Below, piece by piece: positions 12,701-30,783 of a stretch of DNA of 38,853 nucleotides. Numbering within the stretch: the stretch's first letter is position 1; every line of letters begins with the position of its first letter. The notes beneath the pieces are model-generated. The model worked only from the letters and a program-made list of their open reading frames with translations, did no database searches and was not told the origin of the DNA. The stretch comes from Gemmatimonadota bacterium. Lineage in GTDB: Bacteria; Gemmatimonadota; Gemmatimonadetes; Longimicrobiales; RSA9. A program made the translations under genes and the position numbers. The stretch lies in the NCBI GenBank assembly GCA_007126035.1, contig SLCC01000057.1:1-38853 (forward strand), written 5' to 3'.

Positions 12701-13926
12701 TCCACGCTGACCTGGCTCGTGGTGACCCAGCCCGGCCATTCGTCGTGAGGCGAGGCGCCGAGCCAGCCGAGCCAGCCGTCCTGGTTGAGCCCGGCGTCAA
12801 GGAAGGCATCGAAGCCCTGGCTCCAGGCGAAGTCCTCCACCTCCCGCGACGTGGTCCGGGTCCAGTCCACCACCGCCCGGGTGGGCATGCCCGGCGCGAT
12901 CTCCTCGATCTTGGACTTCACGTTGTTGATGGCCTGGAGGGGGTTATAGCCCTCACGCACCACCACCACACCGCCCACAGCCTCGGCGCCGCCCCGGTCG
13001 AGGGCGCCTCGCCGCTCCGCCGGGCCCATGGACACGTGGGCCAGGTCCGACACCCGGATCGGCGTGAACCCGGCGCCGGAGCGCACCACTGCCGCCTCGA
13101 TGTCCGAGACGTCCTTCACGAACCCGGTGCCCCGGATCACGTACTCGACTCGGTTGATCTCGGTGGTGCGGGCGCCCACGTCCAGGTTCGAGCCCTGGAC
13201 CGCACGGAAGACCTCCTCCAGAGAGACGCCGGCCGCGCGGAGGGCGTCCGGGTCCACGTCCACATGGTATTCCCGGACGAAACCGCCCACGCTGGCCACC
13301 TCGCTGATCCCCTCGGCAGCCAGCAGCCCGTAGCGGACGTAGTAGTCCTGGATCGACCGGAGCTCGTGGAGGTCCCAGCCACCCACGGGCATGCCCTGTG
13401 GGTCACGGCCCTCGAGCGTGTACCAGTAGACCTGACCCAGACCCGTGGCATCGGGACCCAGACCCGGCTGCACCCCGGCCGGCAGCGTGCCCGCCGGCAG
13501 GCTGTTCAGCTTCTCTATTATGCGGCTGCGAGCCCAGTAGAACTCGATGTTGTCGTCGAAGATCACCGAGATGGTGGAGAAGCCGAACATGGAGGTGGAC
13601 CGCACCTCCCGCACACCGGGCAGCCCCATGAGCTGGACCGTGAGCGGGTAGGTGACCTGGTCCTCCACGTCACGGGGCGAGCGACCAGGCCAGTCGGTGA
13701 ACACGATCTGCTGGTTCTCGCCCAGGTCCGGGATGGCGTCCACCGCCACAGGGTCGCGGGGCAGCCAGTCCAGCTCCCAGTCGAACGGCGCCACCGCCAG
13801 CCCGCCCAGGACCACCAGCACGGTGGCAATACCCACCACCAGCCGCTGCTCCAGGACGAACCGGATCAGCGCCGCAATGGCGCCCGGCCGCCGCTCTGTG
13901 ATCCTGTCTTCCCTGTTCCGCATCAT
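9793..13926 (-). CDS. cusA: CusA/CzcA-family heavy-metal efflux RND pump, enlarged
   Basis: A 1377-residue inner-membrane proton-driven pump that, with CusB- and TolC-like partners, exports metal ions (probably Cu+/Ag+). Family landmarks include DAIPDLGENQQIVFTDWPGRSP (about 63-83), VTYPLTVQLMGLPGV, FWARS-like FYWARS, the membrane proton-relay segment GTIVDMGIIISENVIRHLDE (about 488-507), the repeat-2 counterpart LFGIAVDDGVVMMTYLR, and GLRRVRPCLMTSATTILALLPVL. It is roughly 330 residues longer than a typical CusA (about 1050). Extra material lies at about 366-415 (Trp-rich), 586-735 (a Gly/Arg-rich stretch followed by about three extra hydrophobic segments), 760-798, 880-945 and a Gly/Met-rich loop at 1070-1098. 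The start is one of two adjacent ATGs; GAGGAG abuts the first, so the second (13923) may be used. It begins 4 bases after the cusB stop. Confidence 0.95.
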   Translation of the reverse strand: MMRNREDRITERRPGAIAALIRFVLEQRLVVGIATVLVVLGGLAVAPFDWELDWLPRDPVAVDAIPDLGENQQIVFTDWPGRSPRDVEDQVTYPLTVQLMGLPGVREVRSTSMFGFSTISVIFDDNIEFYWARSRIIEKLNSLPAGTLPAGVQPGLGPDATGLGQVYWYTLEGRDPQGMPVGGWDLHELRSIQDYYVRYGLLAAEGISEVASVGGFVREYHVDVDPDALRAAGVSLEEVFRAVQGSNLDVGARTTEINRVEYVIRGTGFVKDVSDIEAAVVRSGAGFTPIRVSDLAHVSMGPAERRGALDRGGAEAVGGVVVVREGYNPLQAINNVKSKIEEIAPGMPTRAVVDWTRTTSREVEDFAWSQGFDAFLDAGLNQDGWLGWLGASPHDEWPGWVTTSQVSVESFYDRTGLIYETLGTLNDALLQQILVTIIIVIVMLMHLRTSLVVSAMLPLAVLLTFLGMKLFGVDANVVALAGIAIAIGTIVDMGIIISENVIRHLDEAPPEESRINVVYRGASQVGSAVLTAIATTVISFLPVFAMTGAEGKLFTPLAYTKTFVLIAAVLIALTLVPAVMYAAVARRGSGSGGSGRGRGGHGVGARVRLTALVGPGAGRAGSFGLMVAGGALLALSLVMGWLIAAGAALALALLSAYRVYGHRLPPALQGHHTRVGSVAAALAVTWALAYVWEPLGPERAFVINLIFVALLVGGLLGAFLLFERKYEGILRWALANRRAFLAMPALLVMLGLNVWLGFDRVFGFVPRAAGVVGVQESVVRTWGPYSWAMHAFPGLGREFMPALDEGSFLWMPTTMPHASIGEVLEVMAYQNMAFEAIPEVESVVGKIGRAESALDPAPVSMIETVINYHPEYVTDHAGRRLSFAWDRGTGDFVRDDQGELIPDRRGRPYRQWRDHIRSSQDIWDEIVEAGRIPGTTSAPRLQPIETRLVMLQTGMRAPMGIKVRGPDIETLERVAIQLEGLLREVPAVEAATVNAERIVGKPYLEIDVDRERTARYGLSVADVQNTIAMAIGGLEATTTVEGRERYNIRVRYPRELRGDPEEMSRILVAAGSSTGGGMGPMATAGGGAARLTSASGGPIQVPLSEVAEIRYVRGPEMIRSENTFPVSYVTFGGRTGMAEVEVVEQAQAYLNEQMREGRLSLPGGVSFTFAGAYENQLQAAKTLRVVLPVALMLIFLILFFQFRSVPRTLIVFSGIAVAWAGGFVMIWLYGQGWFGNFDIFGANMRELFQLQAINLSVAVWVGFLALFGIAVDDGVVMMTYLRQSSEEQPTDSVEGIREATVQAGLRRVRPCLMTSATTILALLPVLTATGRGADIMIPMAIPSVGGMSLVLLTMFTVPVLFAWAEERKLLRAMETDG

Positions 13927-13930
13927 CTCC

Positions 13931-15817
13931 TCAACCCGCGATCCGGCCCTGGACCTCGCCGCACTCGAACATCTCAGCGCCCCAGTACGGATTCTCCACC
14001 GCCTCGACCCGCGTCAGCCAGGTCCCTTCCGCCCCGTTGACCATGGGACACATGGCCCGGAACAGGGGGCCCACCTGGTCGGAGGGGAACGACCGCACCG
14101 CTTCTTCCAGCAAGTCGCTCAGCGCCTGGAGCTCGCCACGGAGCCCCGCCAGGTCGTCCGCGCCCGCCATGGCCGCCGCTCGACGACGCATCTCGGTCCG
14201 GATCCGGTTCCAGTCACGACCCGCGTCCCGGTCCAGACCCCCCAGCTCGGCGCCTCGCAGTACCTCCTCCAGCCCTGTAGCCGCCGACCGGGCCCCGGCG
14301 GGGTTGTCCCGCGACAGGGCCTCCGCCACACCCAGGTACGCCACTACCACCGTCTCCAGTTGACGGCCCGCGGCGGCGGAGAGCTCTACGGGCACCCTGC
14401 CCGTGTCCCCATGCGGCGCTTCGTGAGCGTCGTGATCATGCGGGGCCGCCGGGCCATGGTCATGGCCGCGGACAGGGGCGGGCGCGGCGCCAGCCATCAT
14501 GCTGGACCGCCCCCGGATCTGGAGCTCGGAATCGATCCGGAACCCGCCGTTCACCACCACCAGGTCCCCCTCCGACAACCCCGACACCACCTCCCGGTAG
14601 GCACCGCTGCGAGCGCCCAGCGTCACCTCCCTGGGCTCGAACGTGGGCCGGTCGTAGCCCGGCAGCTGCACGTAGACCAGCGCCCGCTGCCCCGTCACCA
14701 GGGGCGCGCTGGCCGGGATGACCAGCGCCCCGTTACTGGCGGAACCCGTCGCTTGGCCTCGCGCCAGCATGCCCGGCTTCAGCCGACCGCCCGGGTTGGC
14801 CACCTGGACCCGCACCCTCGCCGTCCGGCGGCCGCCGTCCACCACCGGGTCGATGAAGGACACGGTCCCGTCGAAGATCTGGCCCGGGAACGACTCGACC
14901 GTGAAGTGGAGGGGCTGCCCCACCGCCAGCCGGCCCAGGTCACGCTCGTAGGCGTCGAACTGGGCCCAGACCCGGTTGATCCCCGCCACCCGCATCAGGC
15001 GTCCGCCCGCGGGAAGCCACTCCCCCTGGCGGGCCACCAGGTCGGCCACCACGCCGTCGCCAGGGCTGTAGAGCGTGTAGCTCCGGGCCGGCTGGCCAGT
15101 GTCCAGGATCCGGTCGACCTGGGACCGGGACACGCCCAACGACAGCAACTGGGCCGCCGCCGCCTCCACCAGGTCGGTGCGTCCCCCTGCCTCCGCCGCA
15201 CGCCGCGCCTGCAACAGCTCCTGCGAAGCCGCCAGAATGGCCGGGCTGTATATCTCCGCCAGGGCCTGGCCCCGGCGAACCGTCGCCTGCTCGTAGTTCA
15301 CACGCAGCCGCTCGACCTGGCCCTCGATCCGGAGCACCACGTCGTCGACCTGGGTCTCGTCGTAGTCGATCACGCCGGACAGCCGGACCTCGCTCGCCAG
15401 GTCCCGGCGCTCTACCGGCCAGACCTGCACCGCCATCAGCGCCGCCGCCCGCTCGCTCACCGTCAGGCGAGGAAGGTCGCCGTGCTCCCCGTCGTCGTCA
15501 CCCATGCTCACCGGGATCAGGTCCATGCCGCAGATGGGGCACTGCCCGGGGTTGGGCTGCCGGATCTGGGGATGCATCGAGCAGGTCCACTCCACCCCAT
15601 CGCCGCTGTCCGGGTCGCCAATGGCGGCGCCGATGCCGTCCCGGCCGTCGCCATCGGGCGCGGTGGTCCGGCTCAGCACCGTGGACCCGATGAAGAGGCC
15701 CACCATGAGCACCACCACGTAGGGAGTGAGCTGCTGGGCCCGGGCGGGCAGCCGCCGCCAGCGGGCCAGGCCTCGCTCCCGTACGCCGTGAATCAGATGT
15801 GCGATTCTGTCCTTCAT
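13931..15817 (-). CDS. cusB: CusB-type membrane fusion protein with metal-binding and DUF3347-like domains
   Basis: A 628-residue periplasmic adaptor linking the RND pump to the outer-membrane channel. The start at 15817 has GGTGAGGAG five bases upstream; the open frame extends further back without a site. In order: a membrane anchor at about 31-49; a heavy-metal-binding domain with WTCSMHP (Cys79, His82) and CPICGM (Cys93, Cys96); the HlyD-like barrel and hairpin (SGVIDYDET to about 435, with GQVERLRVNYEQATVRRGQ and LYSPGDGVVADLVARQGEWL); a His-rich linker at about 452-470 (GHDHGPAAPHDHDAHEAPHG); and a C-terminal helical domain with MCPM, WL and NPYWGAEMFECG, typical of DUF3347. The metal-binding and His-rich parts suggest it hands periplasmic copper to the pump. 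Confidence 0.95.
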   Translation of the reverse strand: MKDRIAHLIHGVRERGLARWRRLPARAQQLTPYVVVLMVGLFIGSTVLSRTTAPDGDGRDGIGAAIGDPDSGDGVEWTCSMHPQIRQPNPGQCPICGMDLIPVSMGDDDGEHGDLPRLTVSERAAALMAVQVWPVERRDLASEVRLSGVIDYDETQVDDVVLRIEGQVERLRVNYEQATVRRGQALAEIYSPAILAASQELLQARRAAEAGGRTDLVEAAAAQLLSLGVSRSQVDRILDTGQPARSYTLYSPGDGVVADLVARQGEWLPAGGRLMRVAGINRVWAQFDAYERDLGRLAVGQPLHFTVESFPGQIFDGTVSFIDPVVDGGRRTARVRVQVANPGGRLKPGMLARGQATGSASNGALVIPASAPLVTGQRALVYVQLPGYDRPTFEPREVTLGARSGAYREVVSGLSEGDLVVVNGGFRIDSELQIRGRSSMMAGAAPAPVRGHDHGPAAPHDHDAHEAPHGDTGRVPVELSAAAGRQLETVVVAYLGVAEALSRDNPAGARSAATGLEEVLRGAELGGLDRDAGRDWNRIRTEMRRRAAAMAGADDLAGLRGELQALSDLLEEAVRSFPSDQVGPLFRAMCPMVNGAEGTWLTRVEAVENPYWGAEMFECGEVQGRIAG

Positions 15818-15860
15818 GGTCTCCTCACCCTTGACCTCGTCGCCGGTCACTCGTCGCCGG

Positions 15861-17159
15861 TCACTCGTTGCCTGCGGGATGGCGGCCGATGGTCGCGTCC
15901 AGCCGGGCATGCAGCGACGCCTCCCGCACCCTGGCCGCGATCAGGTCCATCTCCACGTCCAGCGCCATCCTCTGCGCGTCCAGCAGCTCCAGGAAGCGGG
16001 TCGTGCCCGCCTGGTACCCCGCCAGGCTCGCGTCCAGGACCTGGCGGACCTGCGGCCTCAGCCGGTCCTCGTACCGGGCGACCCGGTCCTGGACCCGGCT
16101 CAACTGCGTCAGCACGTCGTCCAGCTCCGTCTCCAGGGCCAGCAGCGCGTCCGCCGTCTCCAGCTCCCGCTGACTCGCCCGCAACTCCGCCTCCCGGATC
16201 TCCGCCCGGACGCCGCCCCGCCAGAGCGGCAGGCTCAGCCCGATGGACGGCATCACCGGCTCCTGACCGTACATCCGGTCGAAACCCATCCTGGACAGGT
16301 TGAGGTTCAGCCCCACGCTCAACTCGGGCCGGAGCATGGTCCGACGCATGTCTGCAAGCGACTCCTCGGCCGACACCATGGCGCGACCCGCCTCCACCAG
16401 CGGGTGCCCGGCCACCTGCGCCAGGTACTCCGCCGGGTCCGGCGCGCCGCCCCGGGCAGCCGGCGACGCCAGCCGGTCGTCGCCGCCGATCCGGACCTGG
16501 CCACCGGTGAGCGACTCGATCCGCGCCACCAGCGCCGCCCGCTCCTCCGCCAGCGATTCGAGTCGCTGGCCCAGGACCTCCGTCTCCACCTCGATCCCCA
16601 GCACCGCCTGCAGGGGCGTCCGCCCCGCCGCGTACTGGGCGAGCGCCGCCTCACGATAGAGGTCCAGTTGGGCCATGTACTCGCCGATCAGCGACCGCCG
16701 CTCCTGGACACCCCACAGCTCGCTGTAAGTGGTGCGGGCCAGCAGCACCAGCTCCAGGTCCATGGCCTCGACCTCCAGGGCCGTGGCCGACGCCATGCTG
16801 GCCCGAGCGGCACGGTCCGCCGCCAGACGACCCGGCCACGGGATGGCCTGGCGCGCCATGACCTGGGCACCGGCCTCACCATCCGCGATCATGGCCACCA
16901 TGGGCATGACCTCCACCATGGGGAACGGCCAGCGGACCTGGCCCGGTCGCTCCGCATCCGCCGCCGCACCGGCCCGGGCTGCCTCCAGCCTCAGGTTCCG
17001 GCCGCGGACGGCCGCAACGACCTCCGCCTCCGTGCGCGTGGGCTGCGCGGCGACATCCATCCTCGCCACCGCGGCTTCCTGGGCACCGGCCATCCCCGGC
17101 AGCGACACCGCGCCAGCGATCACCAGCCCCAGCAGCCATCTCGATCTATCCTGGTTCAT
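15861..17159 (-). CDS. cusC: TolC-family outer-membrane efflux protein (CusC-like)
   Basis: A 432-residue outer-membrane factor, the exit duct of the tripartite metal pump. The start at 17159 is chosen because it opens a clean signal peptide (basic NQDRSRW, hydrophobic LLGLVIAGAVSLPG, cleavage near MAGAQ); the frame extends 18 codons upstream. Two OEP repeats of long heptad-rich helices follow, with RPELSVGLNLNLS, GLSLPLWRGGVRAEIREAELRAS and YQAGTTRFLELLDAQR as the family signatures. The segment at about residues 77-105 is Met-rich (PFPMVEVMPMVAM and QVMAR), which could bind copper. It is the first gene of the minus-strand unit, 43 bases before cusB, so the promoter should lie in the gap up to 17428. 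No strong ribosome site is seen. Confidence 0.92.
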   Translation of the reverse strand: MNQDRSRWLLGLVIAGAVSLPGMAGAQEAAVARMDVAAQPTRTEAEVVAAVRGRNLRLEAARAGAAADAERPGQVRWPFPMVEVMPMVAMIADGEAGAQVMARQAIPWPGRLAADRAARASMASATALEVEAMDLELVLLARTTYSELWGVQERRSLIGEYMAQLDLYREAALAQYAAGRTPLQAVLGIEVETEVLGQRLESLAEERAALVARIESLTGGQVRIGGDDRLASPAARGGAPDPAEYLAQVAGHPLVEAGRAMVSAEESLADMRRTMLRPELSVGLNLNLSRMGFDRMYGQEPVMPSIGLSLPLWRGGVRAEIREAELRASQRELETADALLALETELDDVLTQLSRVQDRVARYEDRLRPQVRQVLDASLAGYQAGTTRFLELLDAQRMALDVEMDLIAARVREASLHARLDATIGRHPAGNE

Positions 17160-17428
17160 ACCGAGTTCTCGATTCCGCAGCCGTCCCTCAGCTTCCGACA
17201 CAGCAATTCTCACATGTGTGGAGTGAAATCAGGGTGAACATCACATGAAGGTTCGTTCAGAAATCCCGAGTCGGCACCCGGCGCCGGGGGTCATCGGGGC
17301 CGACCGTGCTCTCCCCGTACGGCTATGGGGTGGCGGCCGGAAGGCGAAGCGCCGAAAATTGGTGGAGCTGGGCGGTTCCCGGACGGTGGTGTACTCGTTC
17401 CGTTTGGCCTCTGGAAAGGAGTTGGCAG
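17160..17428. other. Divergent promoter region, cus unit and Pro-rich lipoprotein
   Basis: A 269-base gap between the divergent cusC-like and lipoprotein genes. It holds a perfect palindrome CACATGTG (17211-17218) with a second half copy CACATG at 17242-17247, 31 bases away, and a perfect 12-base palindrome CCCGGCGCCGGG at 17277-17288. The first pair could be an operator for the metal unit, but I can place no -35/-10 elements with confidence. Confidence 0.35.
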
Positions 17429-18079
17429 ATGCGGATTGCGTTGCTGGTATCCTTGGCAGGCCTGCTGTTCGCGGCATCGTGTGAGCCCCCGCCGGAGCCG
17501 GCGCCACCACCGGAGCCGGTGCCCGGGCCGGAGCCGGTGCCCGATCAGGAGCCCGTCTTCCAGGTGGAGTTGTGGCCCGAGGAGGGCATCCCGCAGTTCC
17601 ACGCCACAGGCGCGGCGCTGGCGCTCCACGAGGATCCAGCCAGGTCGATCCCGTTGGCCCGTGTGGTGCGTGACGTGGAGGCGGGCACGCCGATCCAGTT
17701 CGATGCTACGAGGTACCAGACACTCCGGCCTGGTCGGATAGCGGTGCTGGAGGCGGACACGATCCGAGGTCGCAACCTGGGCACCATCAGCTATCTCAGC
17801 CGCGAAGAGTACTATGGCCAGCATCCGGCGGAAGAATGGCCGGTCATGCCGGGCGATACCATCGACTACCTCCAGTACCGCGCCGAAGGTACCTGCTTTG
17901 TGCGGATCGACGGCACGGTGGTCGACGCGGAGCAGTGTCCTGCCCTTTTCGGAGATTCTTTCGAGCTCACCAGCGAGCCGCTGCTCGACTGGTGGATCAG
18001 GGTGGTGCTGGACCACTCGCCGGCTGGCTGGCTGCTGGTCGATAATGCCGTGGTCACCGAGGTGGGACGCGGCTTCTGA
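17429..18079 (+). CDS. Lipoprotein of unknown function with Pro/Glu-rich linker
   Basis: A 216-residue lipoprotein. The start at 17429 follows AAAGGAG by 7 bases and opens a signal ending in lipobox FAASC (Cys about 18); the open frame runs further upstream without a site. After the Cys comes a Pro/Glu repeat (EPPPEPAPPPEPVPGPEPV) of about 25 residues that probably spans part of the envelope. The rest is an acidic, mostly beta globular domain with YQTLRPGRIAVLEADTIRG, YLSREEYYG, a pair of Cys in GTCFVRIDGTVVDAEQCP that may form a disulfide, and DWWIRVVLDHSPAGWLLVDNA. The last motif resembles SH3-type wall-associated strands, but I recognise no named family. It is divergent from the metal-efflux unit. 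Confidence 0.75.
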   Translation: MRIALLVSLAGLLFAASCEPPPEPAPPPEPVPGPEPVPDQEPVFQVELWPEEGIPQFHATGAALALHEDPARSIPLARVVRDVEAGTPIQFDATRYQTLRPGRIAVLEADTIRGRNLGTISYLSREEYYGQHPAEEWPVMPGDTIDYLQYRAEGTCFVRIDGTVVDAEQCPALFGDSFELTSEPLLDWWIRVVLDHSPAGWLLVDNAVVTEVGRGF

Positions 18080-18178
18080 GGCAGCCCGGGTCGCCTCGGA
18101 GGCGTCGGCGCCCGACCGCGTGGGCCAACCGCAGCGGGGTGCGATGCTTGGCGCCCCCGGAAAGAAGACGTAGCGCAG

Positions 18179-18922
18179 ATGCCGAACCCAACCGCCGCCA
18201 TGCTGGTGATCGGCGACGAGATCCTGGCTGGCCGCACTCGCGACGCCAACCTGGCGCACCTCGCCGTGTCGCTGAGCGAGAAGGGGATCGACCTGCGGGA
18301 GGCGCGCGTCATCCCCGACGTCGAGGACGAGATCGTCGCGGCCCTCGACCACCTCCGGGCGCGCTACACCCACGTGTTCACGTCGGGTGGGATAGGTCCC
18401 ACCCACGACGACGTCACCGCCGACGCCGTAGCCCGTGCCCTCGACGTCCCCCTGGCGGTGCGGGAAGACGCCCGCGCCATCCTGGCCAGCCACTACGCGG
18501 ACACGCCCCATGTCCTGAACGAGGCGCGCCTCCGGATGGCCAGGGTACCCCGGGGCGCGGTGCTCATCGAGAATCCGATATCGAGGGCGCCCGGCTTCTC
18601 CATCGACAACGTACACGTCATGGCCGGCGTGCCCGAAATCTTCGCGGCCATGCTCGATGGGCTCCTGGCCCGGCTGACCGGTGGCCGGCCCCTCCTCAGC
18701 GAAACCGTGCACGTGCCCCTGGTGGAAGGCGAGGTGGCCGGGCCGCTGCGTCGCCTGGTCGACGCGCACCCGGACGTCTCCATCGGCTCCTACCCCTTCC
18801 ACCGGGTCGGCGAGATCGGCTGTACGCTGGTGCTGCGCTCGCAGGATCGCGACGCCCTGGCCGCGGCCCGGACCGACCTGGACCGGATGCTCGCGGACAT
18901 CCGAACCGGACCAGACGACTGA
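18179..18922 (+). CDS. Molybdopterin-binding-fold protein, CinA N-terminal/MoaB-like
   Basis: A 247-residue cytoplasmic protein of the MoCF-binding (MogA/MoaB/CinA-N) fold. The N-terminus MLVIGDEILAGRTRDANLAHLA and the phosphate-binding loop FTSGGIGPTHDDVTADAVA are the defining motifs. The remainder (VMAGVPEIFAAMLDGLL, VHVPLVEGEVAGPLRRLVDAHPDVSIGSYP) matches stand-alone CinA-N proteins. The C-terminal nicotinamide-nucleotide amidase domain of full CinA (about 410 residues in total) is absent. Relatives act in molybdenum cofactor insertion or ADP-ribose/NMN-related metabolism, so the precise role is open. The ADP-ribose macrodomain gene two loci away is suggestive only. It is followed after 29 bases by the AHSA1 gene on the same strand, so the two are probably co-transcribed. 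Confidence 0.86.
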   Translation: MPNPTAAMLVIGDEILAGRTRDANLAHLAVSLSEKGIDLREARVIPDVEDEIVAALDHLRARYTHVFTSGGIGPTHDDVTADAVARALDVPLAVREDARAILASHYADTPHVLNEARLRMARVPRGAVLIENPISRAPGFSIDNVHVMAGVPEIFAAMLDGLLARLTGGRPLLSETVHVPLVEGEVAGPLRRLVDAHPDVSIGSYPFHRVGEIGCTLVLRSQDRDALAAARTDLDRMLADIRTGPDD

Positions 18923-18951
18923 TACCGAGAACGATCACAAGGGAGGCGATC

Positions 18952-19584
18952 ATGGAAATCGATCCAGGAGCACAGATCGACACGGTTGCCCGGACCGTGC
19001 GGCCGGCCGGCGAGCGGGACGGTCAGGAGTTGTTCATAGTGGCTTCGACCAGGCCGTACGCCGTCGATGTGGACGACCTGTGGGACGCCCTGACGAGCCA
19101 GGATCGGCTCCCGCGCTGGTTCCTGCCCATCAGCGGCGACCTCCGGCTCGGCGGACGGTACCAGCTCGAGGGTAATGCCGGCGGTGAGATCCTGGTGTGC
19201 CAGCCGCCGCGTCGACTGGCGGTGACGTGGGAGTTCGCCGGACAGCTGTCGTGGCTGGAGGTGCTGCTGACGGCCGAGAAGCCTGGCTCGACGAGGCTGG
19301 ACCTGGAGCACACCATCCCCGCAGACGACCACTGGCGCCAGTTCGGCCCCGGCGCGACCGGCGTGGGCTGGGACATGGGTCTCACTGGCCTGGCCGAGCA
19401 CCTGGCGACGGGGGCGGCCGCGGACCCCGCGGCGGCTATGGCCTGGCTCGGCTCCGCCGATGGCAGGGCGTTCATCGCCCGGAGCAGCGCGGCATGGGCA
19501 AGGGCGGCCGTGGTGGCGGGGATGCCGGAGCCGGACGCCACCGCCGCCGCGGCCCGGACGACGGCGTTCTATTCCGGCGGCTGA
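18952..19584 (+). CDS. SRPBCC/AHSA1-family protein
   Basis: A 210-residue protein with the START-like helix-grip fold of the AHSA1 (activator of Hsp90 ATPase homolog 1-like) group. GGGAGG lies 5 bases before the ATG. The core reads IVASTRPYAVDVDDLWDALTSQDRLPRWFLPISGDLRLGGRYQLEGNAGGEILVCQPPRRLAVTWEF, the usual order of strand, helix with W(D/E)A(L/F)T, then the WF and GG strands. The C-terminal half has DDHWRQFGPGATGVGWDMGL, the GWxxxL helix that closes the pocket, followed by about 50 extra Ala-rich residues. Bacterial members bind hydrophobic ligands or act with ArsR-type regulators; nothing here shows which. It is downstream of the CinA-N gene and convergent with the macrodomain gene. Confidence 0.85.
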   Translation: MEIDPGAQIDTVARTVRPAGERDGQELFIVASTRPYAVDVDDLWDALTSQDRLPRWFLPISGDLRLGGRYQLEGNAGGEILVCQPPRRLAVTWEFAGQLSWLEVLLTAEKPGSTRLDLEHTIPADDHWRQFGPGATGVGWDMGLTGLAEHLATGAAADPAAAMAWLGSADGRAFIARSSAAWARAAVVAGMPEPDATAAAARTTAFYSGG

Positions 19585-19720
19585 TCGGCTACGAGAAACT
19601 CCGGTCGCCCCGCCCCACCAAGACGCCCAAGGCGGCCGGCCGCCGCCGGGCCGGCGCGTCCGGCTCATGGTCGTCGCTGACCGAGACGGATCTCGATTTC
19701 GCCGCCGCCGCGACCATCGA

Positions 19721-19759
19721 TTACGAGATTGCGCTCGCTTTCCGAGCGGTATCTCGTAA
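19721..19759. repeat. Long hairpin A in a convergent gap
   Basis: TTACGAGAT-TG-CGCTCG (19721-19737) pairs with CGAGCG-GT-ATCTCGTAA (19743-19759): 17-base arms with one 2x2 internal mismatch and loop CTTTC. It lies between the convergent AHSA1 and macrodomain genes. There is no T-tract on either side. Confidence 0.75.
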
Positions 19760-19783
19760 CGAGTCCGCCCGACCACCTTCCGC

Positions 19784-19820
19784 ATCGAGGTTGATCTCGG
19801 TTTCCGAGATCAACCTCGAT
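19784..19820. repeat. Long perfect hairpin B in a convergent gap
   Basis: ATCGAGGTTGATCTCGG (19784-19800) and its exact reverse complement (19804-19820) form a perfect 17-pair stem with a 3-base TTT loop. It starts 24 bases after hairpin A ends. CTCGATTTCG occurs both at its right edge and near 19692, and short GAGAT/ATCTC words recur throughout the gap, so the region is built from related sequence. A bidirectional terminator, a repetitive palindromic element or a structured RNA are possible; no T-tract favours simple intrinsic termination. Confidence 0.8.
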
Positions 19821-19871
19821 TTCGAGTGCCCAGGGGGCGGCCGTTACGAGGTTCTAGACTCGAGGTCCGGA

Positions 19872-20435
19872 CTACTCCGGCCCGCTTTCGCCCACCACTT
19901 CGTCGAGGATCCGCTCGTGCAGTTCCAGCGCGGTCGAATCGTACAGGACGAACCGGATACGCTCCACCGTATCCAACCGGGGCGCCTGCTCCAGGACGGC
20001 CCCCAGGGCTATCCTTGCCGCCGGCTCGGCGGGGAACCCGAAGGCACCGGTGGAGATGGCGGGAAACGCTATGGAGCGGACCTGGTTCTCCTCCGCGAGT
20101 CGCAGAGCCTCACGGTAGCACGAGGCCAGCAGCTCGTCGGACGGTTCATCCCGCCCGTACACGGGTCCCAGGCAATGGATGACGTAGCGGTTGGGCAGCC
20201 GGTGTCCCGACGTAATGACCGCCTCACCGGGCTCGATGGGTGCCAGGGGCCGGCACTCCGCCTCGAGCCCTGGACCCGCGGCGCGGTGGAGGGCGCCGGC
20301 CACTCCGCCGCCAGTGCGCAGCTGGGCGTTCGCCGCGTTCACCACCGCGTCGAAATCTTCCTGAGCCGCGATGTCGCCCACCACCAACTCCAACTCGACC
20401 GGGCTCTGCTCGGTATCGCGCATGTCAACCGTCAT
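19872..20435 (-). CDS. Macrodomain protein, ADP-ribose/O-acetyl-ADP-ribose hydrolase-like
   Basis: A 187-residue single macrodomain of the MacroD/YmdB type, which removes ADP-ribose from proteins or deacetylates O-acetyl-ADP-ribose. Motifs: LVVGDIAAQEDFDAVVNAAN with catalytic-loop NAAN, TGGGVAGALHRAAGPGL (the GGGV.GAIH loop), GEAVITSGHRLPNRYVIHCLGPVYG, and the phosphate loop AFPAISTGAFGFP. All key residues are present, so it should be active. I chose the ATG at 20435; a GTG at 20453 and an ATG at 20423 are also in frame, and none has a clear ribosome site. The PH-domain gene lies upstream on the same strand with a short gap, so they are probably co-transcribed. Confidence 0.9.
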   Translation of the reverse strand: MTVDMRDTEQSPVELELVVGDIAAQEDFDAVVNAANAQLRTGGGVAGALHRAAGPGLEAECRPLAPIEPGEAVITSGHRLPNRYVIHCLGPVYGRDEPSDELLASCYREALRLAEENQVRSIAFPAISTGAFGFPAEPAARIALGAVLEQAPRLDTVERIRFVLYDSTALELHERILDEVVGESGPE

Positions 20436-20474
20436 GTGTCGTGGGTGAATCACCAGACCGCGAAGCCGGGGCGC

Positions 20475-21071
20475 TCATCCGCTCCTGGCCGCTGCCGACA
20501 GAGCGGATTCGATGCGACGCAGCAGGTCCCGAATCTCCGCGAGCGTCTCCATGAGCACAGGGTCGGCTACCTGGGCCGGGGCCGACTGGGCCTGAGCGCC
20601 CTGCCCGGAAGGCGGAGCCGCGATGGCGCCCGCCGGGTCGTCTCGCTCGGCGATCCGGTCTCGCTGCTCCAGGACATCGTCACGGAAGCCGTCGGTGTCT
20701 TCGATTCCTATGACGCTCACCAACGCCGTGCCCATACTGGTCTGGCCGGCCGTCTCCACCTTGATGCCCTTCAGGCCCATGAACCGCATCACCGGGCCCT
20801 GATAGACCGCCAGGTCTGTGATCTGCTCCAGGGGGATCGCCTTCTCTTCCACGACCATGATGCCCCGGGTCACCTTCAGCTCACGGGAGGTGAGGACCAC
20901 CCGGAGCCGACGGTAGTACCGGCTGTAATACCAGTAGACGACGGCCGCCACGAAGGGAATGAACGGTATCCCCACGATGATGACGGCCATGACGGCCACC
21001 GTCGCCAGCACGTGGTATCGGACAGCGGCGGGAGACAGCTCCGCCTCGCGGAGGATTCGTTGACTTCTCAT
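20475..21071 (-). CDS. Membrane-anchored bacterial PH-domain protein (YdbS-like)
   Basis: A 198-residue protein. Residues 17-52 form one long or two short membrane segments (VRYHVLATVAVMAVIIVGIPFIPFVAAVVYWYY). The bPH_2 domain follows at about 53-125, with the typical strand order YYRRLRVVLTSRELKVTRGIMVVEEKAIPLEQITDLAVYQGPVMRFMGLKGIKVETAG. A Pro/Gln/Ala-rich linker (about 147-168) leads to a short C-terminal helix, DPVLMETLAEIRDLLRRIESAL, with coiled-coil character that suggests oligomerisation. Relatives of unknown function occur widely in bacteria. No ribosome site is obvious before the ATG. A tandem 25-bp repeat lies upstream at 21125-21173, where its promoter would be expected. Confidence 0.85.
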   Translation of the reverse strand: MRSQRILREAELSPAAVRYHVLATVAVMAVIIVGIPFIPFVAAVVYWYYSRYYRRLRVVLTSRELKVTRGIMVVEEKAIPLEQITDLAVYQGPVMRFMGLKGIKVETAGQTSMGTALVSVIGIEDTDGFRDDVLEQRDRIAERDDPAGAIAAPPSGQGAQAQSAPAQVADPVLMETLAEIRDLLRRIESALSAAARSG

Positions 21072-21124
21072 AGGCTACACTATTCACCGATATCATCGAC
21101 TGCACAAGCTACCGAGAAAACGAA

Positions 21125-21173
21125 ACGGGATACCTGGTCCCGATGCAATACGGGATACCTGGTCCCGGTGCAA
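21125..21173. repeat. Tandem 25-bp repeat, two copies, each with a small hairpin
   Basis: Two copies of a 24-base unit (21125-21148 and 21150-21173, period 25) differ at one base. Each contains CGGGA-TACCTGG-TCCCG, a 5-pair hairpin. They lie between the glgX stop and the PH-domain gene start, both on the minus strand. Tandem spacing of 25 bases could suit a protein-binding operator upstream of the PH-domain gene; the start of a longer array is also possible, but only two copies are seen. Confidence 0.75.
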
Positions 21174-21191
21174 CAATCCGGTGCCATCCCG

Positions 21192-23309
21192 TTACCGAAT
21201 CAGCACGACCACGGCCCGGTCACGCACCTCGAGCAGCTCGCCCGGCTGATAGGTCCTGTCCTCACCCTCGCCTGTTGCGCTGGCGGTGTCCACCACCATG
21301 CGCCACTCCCCATTGTCGTCATCCGGCATACGGAACGTGGTGGTCCGCGGCTCGGTGTTGAGCAGGAAGAGGAAGTCGTTGTCCATGATGAGCTCACCCT
21401 CGGAGTCAACCTCCCCCAGGGCCTCGCCGCTCAGGCGGAACGCCAGCGCGAGGGACCATTCCGACTCCCACTCCTCGTCGGTCATCTCCCGGCCTTCCGG
21501 CGTGAGCCAGGTGATGTCGGGCACGTCGGATCCCCGTACCTCGACGCCCTGGAAGAAACGCTTCCGCCGCAGCGCCGGGTGCTTCTTGCGCAGCCGGATC
21601 ACGCGGCGGGTGAACTCCAGGAAGTCCCGCGCCCGCTCGTCCAGGTCCCAGTCGAACCAGGAGATCTCGTTGTCCTGGCAATAGGCGTTGTTGTTGCCGC
21701 CCTGGCTCCGGCCGATCTCGTCGCCGCCCAGGATCATGGGCACGCCCTGTGAGCAGAGGAGGGTGGTGAGGAGGTTCCGTTTCTGCCTCTGACGCAGCTC
21801 GTTGATGTCAGGATCGTCGGTCGGCCCCTCGACGCCATAGTTGGCGGAGAGGTTGTGGTCGGTGCCGTCCTCGTTGTCCTCGCCGTTCGCCTCGTTGTGC
21901 TTCCGGTCGTAGCTGACCAGGTCCTCCAGGGTGAACCCGTCATGTGCAGTGACGAAGTTGATGCTGGCGGTGGGTCGCCTACCATCGCCGCCATAGAGGT
22001 CATTGGACCCGGTCAGACGATAGCCCAGCTCTGCCATGCCGTGGCGATCACCCCGCCAGTAGGAGCGGACGGCGTCCCGGTACCTGCCGTTCCATTCCGT
22101 CCACAGCACCGGGAAGTTGCCTACCTGGTATCCACCGGGGCCCAGGTCCCACGGCTCAGCGATGAGCTTGACACCGGAGAGTATCGGATCCTGGTGGATG
22201 ATGTCGAAGAAGGCCGACAGCCGGTCGACGTCGTGGAGCTCTCGTGCCAGCGCGGCCGCCAGGTCGAAGCGGAAGCCGTCAACGTGCATCTCCTCCACCC
22301 AGTACCGGAGGCTGTCCATGATGAGCCTCAGCGCCTCCGGGTGCAGCATATTCAGGCTGTTGCCGGTCCCCGAGTAGTCCATGTAGTAACGGGGGTCGTC
22401 CTCGACCAGGCGATAGTACGAGCGGTTGTCCAGGCCCCGGAACGAGAGGGTGGGGCCCAGGTGGTTGCCCTCGGCCGTGTGGTTGTAGACGACGTCGAGG
22501 ATGACCTCCAGGCCCGCGGCGTGGAGAGCCTTGACCATGTTCTTGAACTCCGCCACCTGGCCGCCGCGGTCGCCACCGCTGGAGTAGCGGGCGTCGGGGG
22601 CGAAGTAGTTCAGGGTGTTGTAGCCCCAGTAGTTGCGCAGGCCCTTCTCCACCAGGTAGTGGTCGTCCAGGATGTGGTGGACCGGCAACAGCTCTACGGC
22701 CGTGACGCCCAGGCTGGTGAGGTGCTGGATGAAGGGCTCAGACGCCAGGCCGGCGTAGGTGCCCCGCAGGTCTTCGGGCACTTCGGGGTGCCTCATCGTG
22801 GCGCCCTTCACGTGCGTCTCGTAGATGATCGTATGGCTCCAGGGCGTGTCGGGGTGGCCGTCGTCACCCCAGTCGAAGGTCGGATCTATGACCACGCCTT
22901 TGGGCGCGCCCGCCGCGCTGTCCCGGTCGTCATGAGCCAGGTCCTCCCGGGGGTGACCGATCCTGTACCCGAAGACAGGCTCGTCCCAATCGACCCGGGT
23001 CGCCACGGCCTGGGCGTAGGGATCCAGGAGGACCTTGGCAGGATTGAACCGGTCGCCCGACTCCGGCTCGTAGGGGCCTCGGACCCGGTAGCCGTAGAGC
23101 AGGCCCGGACCTACCCCAGGCACGTAGCCGTGCCAAACGTGGGCGTCCACATCCCGGAGCCGCAGAGCTTCAATCTGCCGACCAGGCTCTTCCGTGTCGA
23201 AGAAGCAGAGCTCCACCTCCTCCGCGTTCTCCGAGAACACAGCGAAGTTGACTCCTTCGCCATCCCACATGGCTCCCAGCGGAGCGGGCACTCCTCGAGA
23301 CACATCCAT
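21192..23309 (-). CDS. glgX: Glycogen debranching enzyme GlgX (TreX role)
   Basis: A 705-residue GH13 subfamily 11 isoamylase-type enzyme that hydrolyses alpha-1,6 branches of glycogen in the cytoplasm and releases linear maltodextrins. It has an N-terminal CBM48 beta domain ([33 protein letters not shown]), then the barrel with [44 protein letters not shown], nucleophile DGFRFDLA (Asp about 349), acid/base LIAEPWDLG (Glu about 385), [14 protein letters not shown] (His456-Asp457), and [29 protein letters not shown]. All catalytic residues are intact. GGGAGA lies about 9 bases before the ATG. In genomes with treY and treZ this enzyme supplies their substrate; here those genes follow on the same strand past a transporter gene. 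Confidence 0.95.
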
Positions 23310-23647
23310 CGACTGATCTCCCGGTCCCAGAGGTGAGCGACGACAGGCCCTCTGCCGCAGGTGCAGTGATCATGCCGCTCGCCTGCGTCCGGGCACTCAT
23401 GACCGGCAGGATCGTAAGGGATCCTACGGATGCCTTCGATTCCACGGAGGGCGCTGATGTAACGCCTGTCGAAGAGTCCGGCCCTACAGACCCGTAAGGC
23501 GCCGTCCCGACTTGACAGGGCGGGTGTACGCCCGTTCCCCACAGTTGGACCTTCAACCGTTTCCCGACAGCACCGTTACCCCCCGGTCACTATTCTGCCG
23601 CACGTTTCAGTACAGGTGCAGCCTCAAAAATAGAACGGCTACCAACG
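23310..23647. other. Divergent intergenic region, glgX and DASS transporter
   Basis: A 338-base gap between divergent starts. No frame here looks coding on either strand: the minus-strand frames that continue into glgX are overlaps without a ribosome site. It should carry two promoters. TTGACA occurs at 23512-23517 on the plus strand, but no good -10 follows at 16-18 bases. A weak dyad around GGATCC (23408-23423) has CGTA/TACG flanks. I see nothing else. Confidence 0.5.
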
Positions 23648-25171
23648 ATGGTAGAACACGACGAAACACTAGAATTCGAGACGCCCCTCACGACCCGCAA
23701 GCGTGTGGGGCTTTTCATAGCGCCCGTGGTATTCCTGGCGATGCTTGTCCTGCCGGCTCCGGAGGCGATGACGCCAGAGGCATGGCGGACGGCGGCCGTG
23801 GGCATACTGATGGCCATGTGGTGGGTAACGGAAGCGATTCCCATCCCCGCCACGGCCGTGCTGCCCATGGTCCTGTTCCCGCTCCTCGGGATCGTGCCCA
23901 TCGGCGCTGCCACGGCACCATATGCCAACCCTATCATCTTCCTGTTCCTGGGCGGCTTCATCATCGCCCTGGGCATGCAGAAGTGGGAGCTCCACCGCCG
24001 CATCGCCCTGACGGTGGTTTCCTGGCTGGGCACCCAGCCACACCGGCTGGTCCTGGGCTTCATGGTCGCCACCGCCTTCCTGAGCATGTGGGTGAGCAAT
24101 ACGGCGACGGCGGTGATGATGATGCCCATTGGGCTGTCAGTGATCGCCCTGGTGGCGCCCAAGACCGAAACGGGTGAGCTGGGGCAGCTCAACTTTGGCA
24201 CGAGCCTGATGCTGGGCGTGGCCTACGCCGCAAGCGTGGGTGGACTGGCCACGCTGATCGGCACCCCGCCCAACGCGCTGCTCGCGGGGTTCATGAGCAC
24301 CGCGTACGATATCGAGATCGGCTTCGCCCAGTGGATGCTGGTGGGGCTGCCGCTCACGATCGTGGCGCTACCCATTGTCTGGGTGATGCTCACGCGGGTG
24401 GTCTTCCCTATCCAGATCAAGGAAGTCCCGGGCGGTCGGGAGCGGATCCGCGAGGAGCTGGACAAGCTCGGACCGCTGTCCAAGGCCGAGGCGCGGGTAG
24501 GCATAGTCTTCTGTTTGACGGCCGTGGCGTGGGTGACGCGCCCATTGCTGGAAGCCATTCTCCCCGGCCTGAACGATACCAGCATAGCCATTGCGGCGGC
24601 GCTGGTGCTCTTCCTCATGCCGTCGGGTGCGAACGGCAACGGCGGCCGGTTCATCCTGGACTGGGAGACGGCGGAGGAGCTGCCGTGGGGCGTCCTGCTC
24701 CTGTTCGGTGGCGGCCTGAGCCTGGCCAACGCGGTCACCACCACCGGCCTCGCCGACTGGATCGGCATGTCACTCGGTGGTCTGGTGGCGCTGCCAACGA
24801 TCGTGCTCGTGCTGATCGTCGCCCTCGTGGTCATCTTCCTCACGGAGCTGACCAGCAACACGGCGACTGCGGCGGCGTTCCTGCCGGTGCTGGCGCCCCT
24901 GGCGGTGGCACTTGGCCAGAGCCCGTTCCTGCTGGTGGTGCCGGCGGCGCTGGCTGCGAGCTGCGCCTTCATGATGCCGGTGGCCACGCCGCCCAACGCA
25001 ATCGTCTACGGGACCGGCTACGTGACGATCCCGCAGATGGCGAAGGCGGGGATCGGGCTCAACATGATGTTCGTGGTCCTGGTCACGGTGCTGGTGTACT
25101 CGGTGATGCTATGGGCCTTCGGCGTGACTCTGGGCGAGGTGCCCGAGTGGGCCCTCCGGATGAATTCCTGA
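23648..25171 (+). CDS. DASS/SLC13-family sodium:dicarboxylate (or anion) symporter
   Basis: A 507-residue inner-membrane transporter of the divalent anion:sodium symporter family (CitT/SdcS/NaDC type), which takes up C4-dicarboxylates, citrate or similar anions with Na+. About eleven membrane segments can be drawn. The two inverted-repeat SNT signatures are present: SMWVSNTATAVMMMP (about 146-160) and TELTSNTATAAAFLP (about 398-412), with ANPIIFLFLGGFIIALGMQKW, LIGTPPNALLAGF and CAFMMPVATPPNAIVYGTGYV, the last matching the family's signature region. The substrate cannot be assigned. It lies on the plus strand between glgX and treZ, so it interrupts the trehalose genes, and its stop is only 6 bases from the treZ stop. 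The ribosome site is weak. Confidence 0.93.
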   Translation: MVEHDETLEFETPLTTRKRVGLFIAPVVFLAMLVLPAPEAMTPEAWRTAAVGILMAMWWVTEAIPIPATAVLPMVLFPLLGIVPIGAATAPYANPIIFLFLGGFIIALGMQKWELHRRIALTVVSWLGTQPHRLVLGFMVATAFLSMWVSNTATAVMMMPIGLSVIALVAPKTETGELGQLNFGTSLMLGVAYAASVGGLATLIGTPPNALLAGFMSTAYDIEIGFAQWMLVGLPLTIVALPIVWVMLTRVVFPIQIKEVPGGRERIREELDKLGPLSKAEARVGIVFCLTAVAWVTRPLLEAILPGLNDTSIAIAAALVLFLMPSGANGNGGRFILDWETAEELPWGVLLLFGGGLSLANAVTTTGLADWIGMSLGGLVALPTIVLVLIVALVVIFLTELTSNTATAAAFLPVLAPLAVALGQSPFLLVVPAALAASCAFMMPVATPPNAIVYGTGYVTIPQMAKAGIGLNMMFVVLVTVLVYSVMLWAFGVTLGEVPEWALRMNS

Positions 25172-25195
25172 GGGTTCTCAGGAACTAGTCCTGAG
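25165..25195. terminator. Alternating hairpins shared by convergent DASS and treZ genes
   Basis: TTCCTGAG (25165-25172) pairs with CTCAGGAA (25177-25184); the same CTCAGGA (25177-25183) pairs with TCCTGAG (25189-25195). The two perfect hairpins are mutually exclusive and overlap both stop codons. A compact bidirectional terminator is likely, although T-tracts are lacking. Confidence 0.55.
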
Positions 25196-26941
25196 CAGTA
25201 TGGCGGTGGAGGGGCCGGGCAGTGCGACCCGGCCCTCCTCCATGCGCACCCCGTCGCGGCTGGACAGCCGGACCTCGAGAGCCCCTGAGTCACTCGCCGG
25301 CTCCAGCGTCCGCTCGTCCTCGCCCAGGTTGCAGCACACCACCACCCTGCCCCGCTCCAGGACCAGCGTCCGGTGCCGCTCATCCACCCAGACCTTCAGC
25401 GCATCCAACCGTCCGTCCAACAGGCCCGGGGTGGCGCGGCGAAACGCGATCAGCGAGCGATACCACCGCTCGACCTGCTCGTGAAGGGGTGAGCCACGCT
25501 CCTCCCATGGCAGCTTGGACCGCCCGAACGTCTCAAGATTTTGGGGGTCGGGGATGTCCGTCGGGTCCCAGCCGAAGGCGGCGAACTCGCTCCGGCGGCC
25601 TTCCCGCACGGCCTGTCCCAGCTCCTCCTCCTCATGATCGGTGAAGTACTGGAACGGGCTGGACGCCGCCCACTCCTCGCCCTGGAAGATCATGGGTATG
25701 AAGGGCGACGTGAATACCAGCGCGGCGGCCACCTTCTGGGCCTCGGGCCCGGCGAGCTGGCCTATCCGTTCCCCCTGCGCCCGGTTCCCCACCTGGTCGT
25801 GGTTCTGGATGTAGCCGAGGAACCTGTGACCGGAGAGGCCCTCCGCCGGCCGGCCGTGACGGCGACCCCGGTGGCGGGAGTGGGCACCGGCGTAGACGTA
25901 AGCAGACCTCAGGGCCGTGGCGATGTCGCGTACGCGGCCGAAGTCGCGGTAGTACCCGCTGGACTCGCCCGTGAGCGCCGCGTGCAGGGCGTGGTGGAAG
26001 TCGTCGCTCCATTGTGCGTGGAGGCCGAACCCGCCACGCTCCCGGCTCCACAGCAGCCGCGGATCGTTCAGGTCGCTCTCGGGGATGAGCCAGAGGGGCC
26101 TGCCCAGCTTGGCCGCCAGTGCCTCCACCTCCACCGCCAGCTCTTCCAGGATATGGACTGCGGACGTGTCGACGATGGCGTGCACCGCGTCCAGCCGCAG
26201 GCCGTCGATCTCGTAGTCCCGCAGCCACATGAGCGCGTTGTCGATGAAGAAGCGCCGGACCTCGTCGCTGCCCGAGTCGTCGAAGTTCACCGCGGCGCCC
26301 CAGGGGGTGTCATGGCGATGGGTGAAGTACGGGCCGAACTCTCTCAGGTAGTTCCCGCTGGGGCCCAGGTGGTTGTAGACCACGTCCAGGATCACGCCCA
26401 GCCCCCGGCCGTGACAGGCCTCGACGAACCGGCGCAAGCCGTCGGGCCCGCCGTACGGCTCGTGGACGGCGTACAGGGCCACGCCGTCATAGCCCCAGCC
26501 GTGGCGGCCAGGGAAGGCGTTGACGGGCATGAGGGAGACGGCAGTCACGCCCAGCTCCACCAGGTGGTCGAGGCGTTCCGCGGCGGCGTCGAACGTGCCC
26601 TCGGCTGTGAAGGTCCCGATGTGCAGCTCGTAGAGGACGGCGGACGGGAGGTGGAACCCTCGCCACCCGGAGCCCCCGGGCGGCGCCACTGGCTCGACCA
26701 GTCTGCTGGGCCCGTGCACTCCGTGCGGCTGCCAGCGGGATCGCGGGTCGGGACGGGGATCGGAGCCGTCGAGGGAGAAGGCGTAATCGGTACCGGCAGG
26801 CAGGTCGGGAGCGTCCAGCTCCCACCACCCCGAGTCGCCGTTCGCTGGGTCCATGGCCCTCCGCTCCTGCCTCCCCCGCTCCTGGCCCACCACCAGGTCC
26901 ACCTGCTCGGCTGCCGGTGCCCACACCCTGAACCTGCTCAT
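25178..26941 (-). CDS. treZ: Malto-oligosyltrehalose trehalohydrolase
   Basis: A 587-residue GH13 enzyme that cleaves the alpha-1,4 bond next to the trehalosyl end of maltooligosyl trehalose, releasing free trehalose in the cytoplasm. The start is the ATG at 26941, which overlaps the treY stop as ATGA; the frame extends upstream inside treY but without support. It has an N-terminal beta domain (FRVWAPAAEQVDLVVG), the barrel with YELHIGTFTAEGTFDAAAERL, MPVNAFPGRHGWGYDG, DVVYNHLGPSGNYL, nucleophile DGLRLDAVHAI (Asp about 251), acid/base LIPESDLNDPRL (Glu about 288) and YIQNHDQVGNRAQGER. The HIGTFT and PESDLND forms are specific to TreZ. Translational coupling with treY supports joint action. 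Confidence 0.95.
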   Translation of the reverse strand: MSRFRVWAPAAEQVDLVVGQERGRQERRAMDPANGDSGWWELDAPDLPAGTDYAFSLDGSDPRPDPRSRWQPHGVHGPSRLVEPVAPPGGSGWRGFHLPSAVLYELHIGTFTAEGTFDAAAERLDHLVELGVTAVSLMPVNAFPGRHGWGYDGVALYAVHEPYGGPDGLRRFVEACHGRGLGVILDVVYNHLGPSGNYLREFGPYFTHRHDTPWGAAVNFDDSGSDEVRRFFIDNALMWLRDYEIDGLRLDAVHAIVDTSAVHILEELAVEVEALAAKLGRPLWLIPESDLNDPRLLWSRERGGFGLHAQWSDDFHHALHAALTGESSGYYRDFGRVRDIATALRSAYVYAGAHSRHRGRRHGRPAEGLSGHRFLGYIQNHDQVGNRAQGERIGQLAGPEAQKVAAALVFTSPFIPMIFQGEEWAASSPFQYFTDHEEEELGQAVREGRRSEFAAFGWDPTDIPDPQNLETFGRSKLPWEERGSPLHEQVERWYRSLIAFRRATPGLLDGRLDALKVWVDERHRTLVLERGRVVVCCNLGEDERTLEPASDSGALEVRLSSRDGVRMEEGRVALPGPSTAILLRTSS

Positions 26942-29652: not shown

Positions 29653-29715
29653 CGGCCTGCCCCTCATGCAGAAACCGTACTCGGAACGAAGAAGCGGTAC
29701 CTGGAGCCGGCGAGC

Positions 29716-30783
29716 TCAGCAGATGCGGGGCAGCTGCTCGCCGGAGAGCATCTCCACGATCCGGATCCCGCCGACCCGGCTGCGCATGAACACGCGTCCC
29801 GGGTGGTCGGACACCACTGTTCCGATGCGGGCTGCCCTCCTGCATAGCGGATTGCTCTGTAAGGCCGCCAGCGCCTGGTCGGCCCGGTGCTCCGGCACCA
29901 CCGCCACCAGCTTACCCTCGTTGGCCACGTAGAGGGGGTCCAGGCCCAGTATCTCGCAGGCGGCCTTGACCTCCTGCTCCACTGGTATGGCCGTCTCGTC
30001 CAGCAGCACCCCCACACCGGCGCTGGCCGCTATCTCGTTCAGTGCGCTGGCCACCCCGCCCCTGGTGGGGTCGCGGAGCACGTGAAGCTCATGGCCCAGG
30101 CTCGTGAGCAGCGACTGTACCGGAGCCCAGAGCGCCGCCGAGTCCGTCTCCAGCGCCGTCTCGAACTCCAGCCCCTCGCGCACGCTCATGATGGCGATGC
30201 CGTGGGTGCCGATGGGTCCGCTGACCAGCACCGCGTCCCCGGGATGGGCCCGCCGGGGAGAGATGTCCACGCCCTCCGGGACGAATCCGATCCCGGTGGT
30301 GTTGATGAACACGCCGTCGCCCTTGCCACGGTCCACCACCTTGGTGTCACCGGTGATGATGCGGACGTCGGCGGCCCGGGCGGCCTGGCCCATGGAGACG
30401 GCCAGGCGCCACAGGTCCGCCATTGGGAAGCCTTCCTCCAGGATCCAGCCGACTGCAAGGCTCAGTGGCCTGGCGCCGCACATGGCCAGGTCGTTCACCG
30501 TCCCGTGCACCGCCAGCGAGGCGATGTCCCCGCCGGGGAAGAACAGCGGATGGATGACGAAGGTGTCCGTGGAGACCGCCAGTCGCCCACCCTCCACCTC
30601 GATCACCGCGCCGTCGTGCAGCTCCGCCAGCTCCTCGCCCCCGAACGCCGGCAGGAACACCTGCTCGGTGAGCATGCGGGAGAAGGTGCCGCCTCCGCCG
30701 TGGGCCAGTACCACCGTGGGGTAGTCGTCCAGCGGCAGGGGACAACTCATGAGTGTCGGGTCCCGCACCATCTCGTCGGTCAT
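29716..30783 (-). CDS. hypE: Hydrogenase maturation protein HypE
   Basis: A 355-residue PurM/ThiL-fold enzyme that dehydrates the thiocarbamate made by HypF on its own C-terminal Cys to a thiocyanate, the source of the CN ligands of the NiFe site. The start at 30783 overlaps the hypD stop as ATGA. Motifs: [13 protein letters not shown] near the N-terminus, [59 protein letters not shown] (ATP site), [16 protein letters not shown], and the strictly required C-terminal PRIC with Cys at the last position. All are intact. In the cytoplasm it works with HypF and passes CN to HypC-HypD. It is the last hyp gene before treY. Confidence 0.97.

Follow-up and report, generated by a model that had tools for sequence, protein, structure and literature searches.

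The two hairpins that lie between convergent genes in a Gemmatimonadota contig (SLCC01000057.1; the window here means the whole stretch of 38,853 nucleotides that was analyzed) are the middle of an element of about 180 bp, near-palindromic as a whole, in which six 14-17-bp sites have starts 42/19/43/19/42 bp apart and orientations -,+,-,+,-,+ (Table 1). This element is probably a dispersed, non-autonomous MITE/BIME-like DNA repeat, carried within one order of Gemmatimonadota, with sites that are read by a putative protein.

The original prediction described hairpin B as a perfect 17-pair stem with a TTT loop, and its arms are indeed complementary throughout. Hairpin A has the 17-base arms and CTTTC loop attributed to it, but two adjacent mismatches rather than one. 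In a short-distance inverted-repeat scan of the whole window, hairpin B was the sole 100% arm pair among the seven listed, and the imperfect hairpin A was not among them. Words common to the hairpins and their flanks had also been noted, and one of these, CTCGATTTCG, does occur twice (19692-19701 and 19815-19824). The flank words are accounted for by sites 1 and 6 together with site 5; they belong to further sites, which makes the unit one of about 180 bp rather than two hairpins. Neither site 1 nor site 6 has a hairpin partner, and the two are inverted copies of each other, as terminal inverted repeats of a MITE would be, although they match each other no better than other site pairs do (24-base test, 26 copies). 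Site 6 of the window copy has a 2-nt insertion by eye and was missed by a scan allowing three mismatches; it is intact in the copy on contig C23 of the same genome and degenerate in that on C37 too. The predicted convergent gene setting was confirmed, with an AHSA1-like gene on the left and a Macro-domain gene on the right. Elsewhere in the window, at 21125-21173, a 25-bp sequence (ACGGGATACCTGGTCCCGATGCAAT) stands twice in tandem, in near-perfect copies, between a bPH_2 gene and a glycogen-debranching-type gene.

Table 1. Coordinates of the element, its parts and its neighbors in the window, and of a direct repeat around one other copy.
Feature	Position	Strand	Remarks
Whole element (half-site / hairpin A / hairpin B / half-site)	19678..19864	+	R2 covariance-model match
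Site 1 (left half-site)	19682..19695	-	CGAGACGGATCTCG
Hairpin A	19721..19759	.	sites 2 + 3; arms 19721-19737 / 19743-19759; 15/17 pairs
Site 2	19724-19737	+	in hairpin A
Site 3	19743-19756	-	in hairpin A
Hairpin B	19784..19820	.	sites 4 + 5; arms 19784-19800 / 19804-19820; 17/17 pairs
Site 4	19786-19799	+	in hairpin B
Site 5	19805-19818	-	in hairpin B
Site 6 (right half-site)	19847..19860	+	degenerate; placed by layout
Left neighbor, AHSA1-like protein	18955..19584	+	PF08327, E 6.6e-13; stop 19584; start codon provisional
Right neighbor, Macro-domain protein	19872..20453	-	PF01661, E 6.8e-43; stop 19872
Direct repeat at C138 copy	L031 4021-4030 and 4218-4227		only two places of the word on the contig

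Copies were sought with two models, both with rough E-values. R1, the first and sequence-only, gave strong matches in a small number of genomes, on top of a wide background of weak ones (120/154 genomes of the order at E<=0.01). R2 separates better, and is based on A2, a gapless alignment of 23 copies and 187 columns. A2 omits five of the 28 candidates that were measured: C138 and 68_C150 (1-bp spacing differences), C37 (last spacing fitted as 43 at its degenerate site 6), 97_C57 (cut by a contig end) and 350_C151 (doubtful). A further copy, 350_C168, ran off its contig and is outside the 28. The window element scored 126.5 bits against R2 on the plus strand (E 6.4e-25) and 82.2 bits on the minus strand, being itself one of the 23 training rows. 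Outside the training rows are the matches in G046, G068 and G075, C138 and C37 of the window's own genome (G000), two in G067, eleven in G097, and C168 of G350.

The geometry of the element is nearly constant while its sequence is not. Spacing was exactly 42/19/43/19/42 in 24/28 candidates, the doubtful 350_C151 among them, in a fit whose penalty favors this layout; a penalty-free motif scan gave the same spacing in all eight G097 copies with six detected sites. In nine copies outside the training rows, spacing fell within 2 bp in every case by a penalty-free fit within bounded ranges near the model matches: four were exact, one (97_C125) was exact in a shifted register, and four (68_C30, 68_C150, 75_C1 and 46_C165) were off by 1-2 bp. 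Spacing thus shifts by no more than 0-2 bp, and it is the site word that differs between genomes (CGAGATTNNNCTCG; CGACATTTTGCCCG; others). The word is of the CGAGAT type in G000 and G067, CGACATTTTGCCCG in G097 and CTACCTTTCGCTCG-like in G350, with further words in G046, in G075 and in two clearly different G068 copies. Within one element the six sites are non-identical versions of one word, with mean pairwise identities of 0.50-0.88 among the candidates (all 28 minus the truncated 97_C57) and 0.58-0.86 among the nine copies outside the training rows. Pooling the 23 aligned copies (138 sites) gives the common core CGA(G/C)ATTTNNCTCGG, and TCG tends to stand seven bases out.

The suggestion that both arms be searched for in the genome and its relatives, on the view that a lack of other copies would leave a chance or local structure, yielded further copies: there are at least four full ones in the window's own genome and at least 40 places in eight relatives. 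The former stand in different intergenic places on contigs C14, C23, C37 and C138, and a search of the genome with 19660-19870 gave C138 at 83%, C23 at 81% and C37 at 72%. In these own-genome copies a 14-base site recurs with starts 42, 19, 42 or 43, 19 and 42 bp apart. With R2 at E<=1e-4 and both strands merged, there were at least 44 places in nine genomes (at least 4 in G000, 2 in G009, 1 in G046, 13 in G067, 2 in G068, 2 in G075, 1 in G085, 17 in G097 and 2 in G350); these counts of 1-17 are lower bounds, the genomes being drafts and the scoring being capped at 150 candidates per genome. Contig ends truncate eight of the 17 places in G097; truncation of this kind is to be expected, since repeats break assemblies. 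Two decayed copies were also seen in the own genome: a truncated second copy on C37 (L033 2171-2250), about 300 bp from the full one and consisting by eye of hairpin B and the right half, and a right-end fragment on C11 (L133 6957-7041) that comprises sites 5 and 6 with the spacer between them and resembles the C138 copy.

Carriers number nine among 395 sampled genomes of the phylum (R2, E<=1e-5), each in the window's order, of which 154 genomes were searched. Presence is patchy even within genera (two of the five listed members of g36 and one of the six of g22). An exact pattern scan of genome contigs gave six stretches, five of them in Gemmatimonadetes MAGs (four in one, one in another); the sixth, in a Pseudorhodoplanes MAG, showed no site cluster and was taken as chance. 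A pattern holding the layout of six 5-base words, with up to three mismatches, hit 2/395 phylum genomes, and its reversed control none. Phage and plasmid collections gave no match in a distant blastn search with 19600-19950, nor did viral contigs with one exact pattern. No description of such a Gemmatimonadota repeat appeared among the literature matches listed, a search to which most subscription papers and ISfinder were external.

The genes that flank the copies vary: AHSA1/Macro, nucleotidyltransferase, PD40/Lhr helicase, a DUF5615 protein, GDPD/M50, GGDEF-FHA/TPR, FtsH-like, aldehyde dehydrogenase and others, with 9/30 neighbor proteins lacking a Pfam family on crude gene calls. Among the seven copies with Pfam families on both sides, three are in convergent, two in divergent and two in co-directional settings (crude gene calls again, and one Pfam match below cut-off); copies therefore also occur where no gene ends. 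By eye, three G067 copies (L064 ~1644-1682, L072 ~4613-4657 and L067 ~1042-1089) lie close downstream of the 3' ends of apparently paralogous genes. Beside the copy on C37 (L033 2833-3593), a small gene is followed by a DUF5615 gene, possibly a toxin-antitoxin-like pair.

Comparison of copies within one genome points to sharp ends in most cases. Of 78 pairs among the 13 G067 copies, 38 were matched by blastn; the longest piece ended within 10 bases beyond the element in 30 of them. The element is thus short, non-coding, dispersed and mostly sharp-ended, as a MITE is, with eight pairs reaching further. In these eight, flank beyond the element is shared, once over 430 bp: the two degenerate copies concerned, C18 and C4 (L114, L189), have 430 bp in common at 90% identity and were therefore duplicated along with their flank. 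Four G097 copies likewise have more than 400 bp in common, including another repeat, so some copies stem from larger duplications.

Signs of insertion were sought in several ways. Across 33 copies, the best matches between a copy's own flanks equaled cross-copy matches, giving no general signal of target duplication, and for 23 copies the best of 448 offset/length choices was a 2-base match in 7/23 (3.1 expected). The C138 copy is bracketed by a perfect 10-bp direct repeat, GGCCGCCCCC, 4-5 bases outside the end sites, a candidate target duplication; about 0.1 such repeats would be expected among 33 copies, whose flanks are GC-rich. A half-element pattern was scanned over four draft genomes, and in G000, the one in which separation was judged, no separated halves that could mark an autonomous copy were found: matches lay inside known copies, apart from a stray two-mismatch match on C92. 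No empty site was seen, because neighbors are not kept at the relatives' loci (at the 6/8 non-own family loci that were checked, the other window genes were not seen within ~1.5 kb of Macro relatives). A candidate mobilizing enzyme was not found either. We infer mobility from the dispersal of the copies, their ends, which are sharp in most cases, and their patchy occurrence, set beside these negative results for a general target duplication, an empty site and an autonomous partner. The proposal of a mobile palindromic repeat is largely upheld in that a dispersed palindromic repeat with copies elsewhere is what was found, its mobility being the inferred part.

A mechanism consistent with this anatomy can be outlined for the MITE/BIME-like element. 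A lineage-specific protein, perhaps a transposase or recombinase-like factor supplied in trans, would bind the sites as duplex DNA, and its preference would co-evolve with the site word. With spacing nearly fixed, and 42 bp being close to four turns of the helix, bound subunits would lie on a fixed face, and each half (-,+,-) could serve as an end of a small transposable element. On this view the hairpins would be a by-product of inverted neighboring sites and would not have to be transcribed or folded for function.

The main rival to this reading makes the element a platform on the chromosome to which a host protein binds (one of nucleoid, segregation, gyrase-like or regulatory type). Duplication or recombination would have spread it, and the phased arrangement of its six sites would be the reason why it is kept. 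The constancy of spacing within 0-2 bp though the spacers diverge, and the single word common to the six sites of each element, would suit such a platform. Presence in only 9/154 genomes of the order would be odd for a housekeeping structure, however, as would at least 1-17 places per carrier with varied neighbors, and we regard this explanation as the less likely one, at perhaps one chance in a handful.

Readings that give the hairpins a role in RNA, as a structured RNA or bidirectional terminator between convergent genes, are weaker still, and we consider them improbable. They draw on the convergent setting in the window and on strong folding on both strands: 53-nt stretches gave z-scores of -5.23/-5.19 for hairpin A and -7.11/-8.02 for hairpin B, and 0/200 shuffles folded equally well in each case. 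Neither hairpin is followed by a T-tract on either strand, as had been noticed, so the hairpin-then-T-run form of an intrinsic terminator is lacking, and of four terminator-like sites reported for 12000-31900 none is at the hairpins. Moreover, 4/7 copies stand in divergent (2) or co-directional (2) settings. The idea of a paired structural RNA found no support in Rfam, which gave no match in the window at gathering score; the best match at E<=1 in 19600-19950 was Chloroflexi-1, at 17.2 bits against a gathering score of 80.

Nor do the arms covary as arms within genomes. In those genomes that have at least two copies, arms 2:3 and 4:5 were no more complementary than arms swapped between same-genome copies (p 0.86 and 0.40, 21 copies), and a second such test agreed (p 0.77 and 0.59, 26 copies). 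Of the 15 site pairs in the second test, 3:5 stood out (z 3.65, p below 0.001), likewise 1:4 (p 0.039); sites 1:6 had p 0.03 in the first test and 0.82 in the second. The hairpins therefore look like by-products of inverted copies of one site, of which hairpin B's perfect stem is the extreme case. Across lineages, changes on both sides of a pairing exceeded column shuffles for the hairpin fold (122 vs 63.4 cells) and exceeded slid versions too, which folded nucleic acid would also give. A rival tandem fold (1:2, 3:4, 5:6) behaved alike (109 vs 61.7), and the two were close in paired cells (hairpin 77.1%, tandem 76.1%) and in covariation (0.245 vs 0.222). RNAalifold on alignment A1 returned a third pairing (1:2, 3:6, 4:5) with a covariation term of -0.05, and standard pairs numbered 423 for this third pairing, 411 for the hairpin fold and 408 for the tandem fold. 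Since the swap tests were null and the folds nearly equal, the cross-lineage changes are as expected from six sites changing together, and arm-specific covariation of the kind that marks a structured RNA was absent within genomes.

Among known systems, REPINs are paired inverted REPs, and the element resembles them in being made of inverted pairs dispersed as a unit; it differs in having three inverted pairings in one 180-bp unit, and no RAYT was found. Transposon ends with several transposase sites occur in phage Mu and Tn7. The -,+,- halves of the element would be compatible with three recognition sites at each end; in contrast, it has no gene between the halves and no identified transposase; the likeness is one of site number, drawn apart from spacing and orientation. 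BIMEs are described (PMC2817692) as extragenic, palindromic, regularly spaced and of alternating orientation, all of which applies to our dispersed element. Its palindromes, however, are each formed by two neighboring sites, with six sites at near-fixed spacing, and its at least 1-17 places per carrier fall short of the >100 that the same source gives as usual for REPs. In RAYT-associated REPs the palindrome is described as carrying an unpaired GTAG or CGTC tag on one of its ends (PMC3733652). The overall motif, TCGNNNTCGA(G/C)ATTTNNCTCGG, as read by itself rather than from a tag scan, shows no constant GTAG/CGTC at the arms. The descriptions of RU-1 (127 bp) and RU-2 (168 bp), bacterial intergenic multi-copy repeats compared to MITEs (PMC2759123, PMC2229807), match the element in shortness, intergenic position and copy multiplicity; compared by description, the difference is that they belong to another host group and that for our element neither a general target duplication nor a parent insertion sequence was found.

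The original prediction also pointed to a REP-associated transposase of the RAYT type, a link that received no support: Y1_Tnp (PF01797) was found at E<=0.1 in 0/7 carrier genomes tested, the own genome included (drafts 87-98% complete; G046 and G075 stood outside the test), while the same search was positive in 8/14 control genomes. That the element is a REP, REPIN or BIME moved by a RAYT (TnpA-REP) transposase is thus very unlikely, for all its BIME-like anatomy (PMC2817692), in view of these 7/7 negative carriers, the low copy number and the presence of six sites in every examined copy that is neither cut nor decayed. Given the negative search for the RAYT domain and the low copy number, the element does not count as a tested member of the REP/BIME-with-RAYT group, but its construction, judged by anatomy, is that of a REP/BIME.

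A bolder reading, which we put forward tentatively, is that of an undescribed mobile or chromosome-organizing system in which a lineage-specific protein recognizes its own site in six phased copies, the geometry being kept to a base or two, protein and word co-evolving, and spread proceeding without RAYT and as a rule without detectable target duplication. Each genome would then have its own site 'language' on a common scaffold; in G068 the two copies have clearly different words. Dispersed palindromic repeats are commonly put down to RAYT transposases or RNA hairpins; the six-site family sits in genomes in which no RAYT domain was found (7/7 tested), and its hairpins bear no sign of selection as hairpins. 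Were the cognate protein found, the family would become a clear example of a protein and its DNA site co-evolving while the scaffold stays fixed, and would warn that conserved 'hairpins' may be paired binding sites. As a separate observation, the flanks of three copies in G097 (L119, L120, L121), a draft in which Y1_Tnp was not found, carry GTAGGGGCGCCC/GTAGGAGCGCCC-like repeats that resemble GTAG-tagged REPs.
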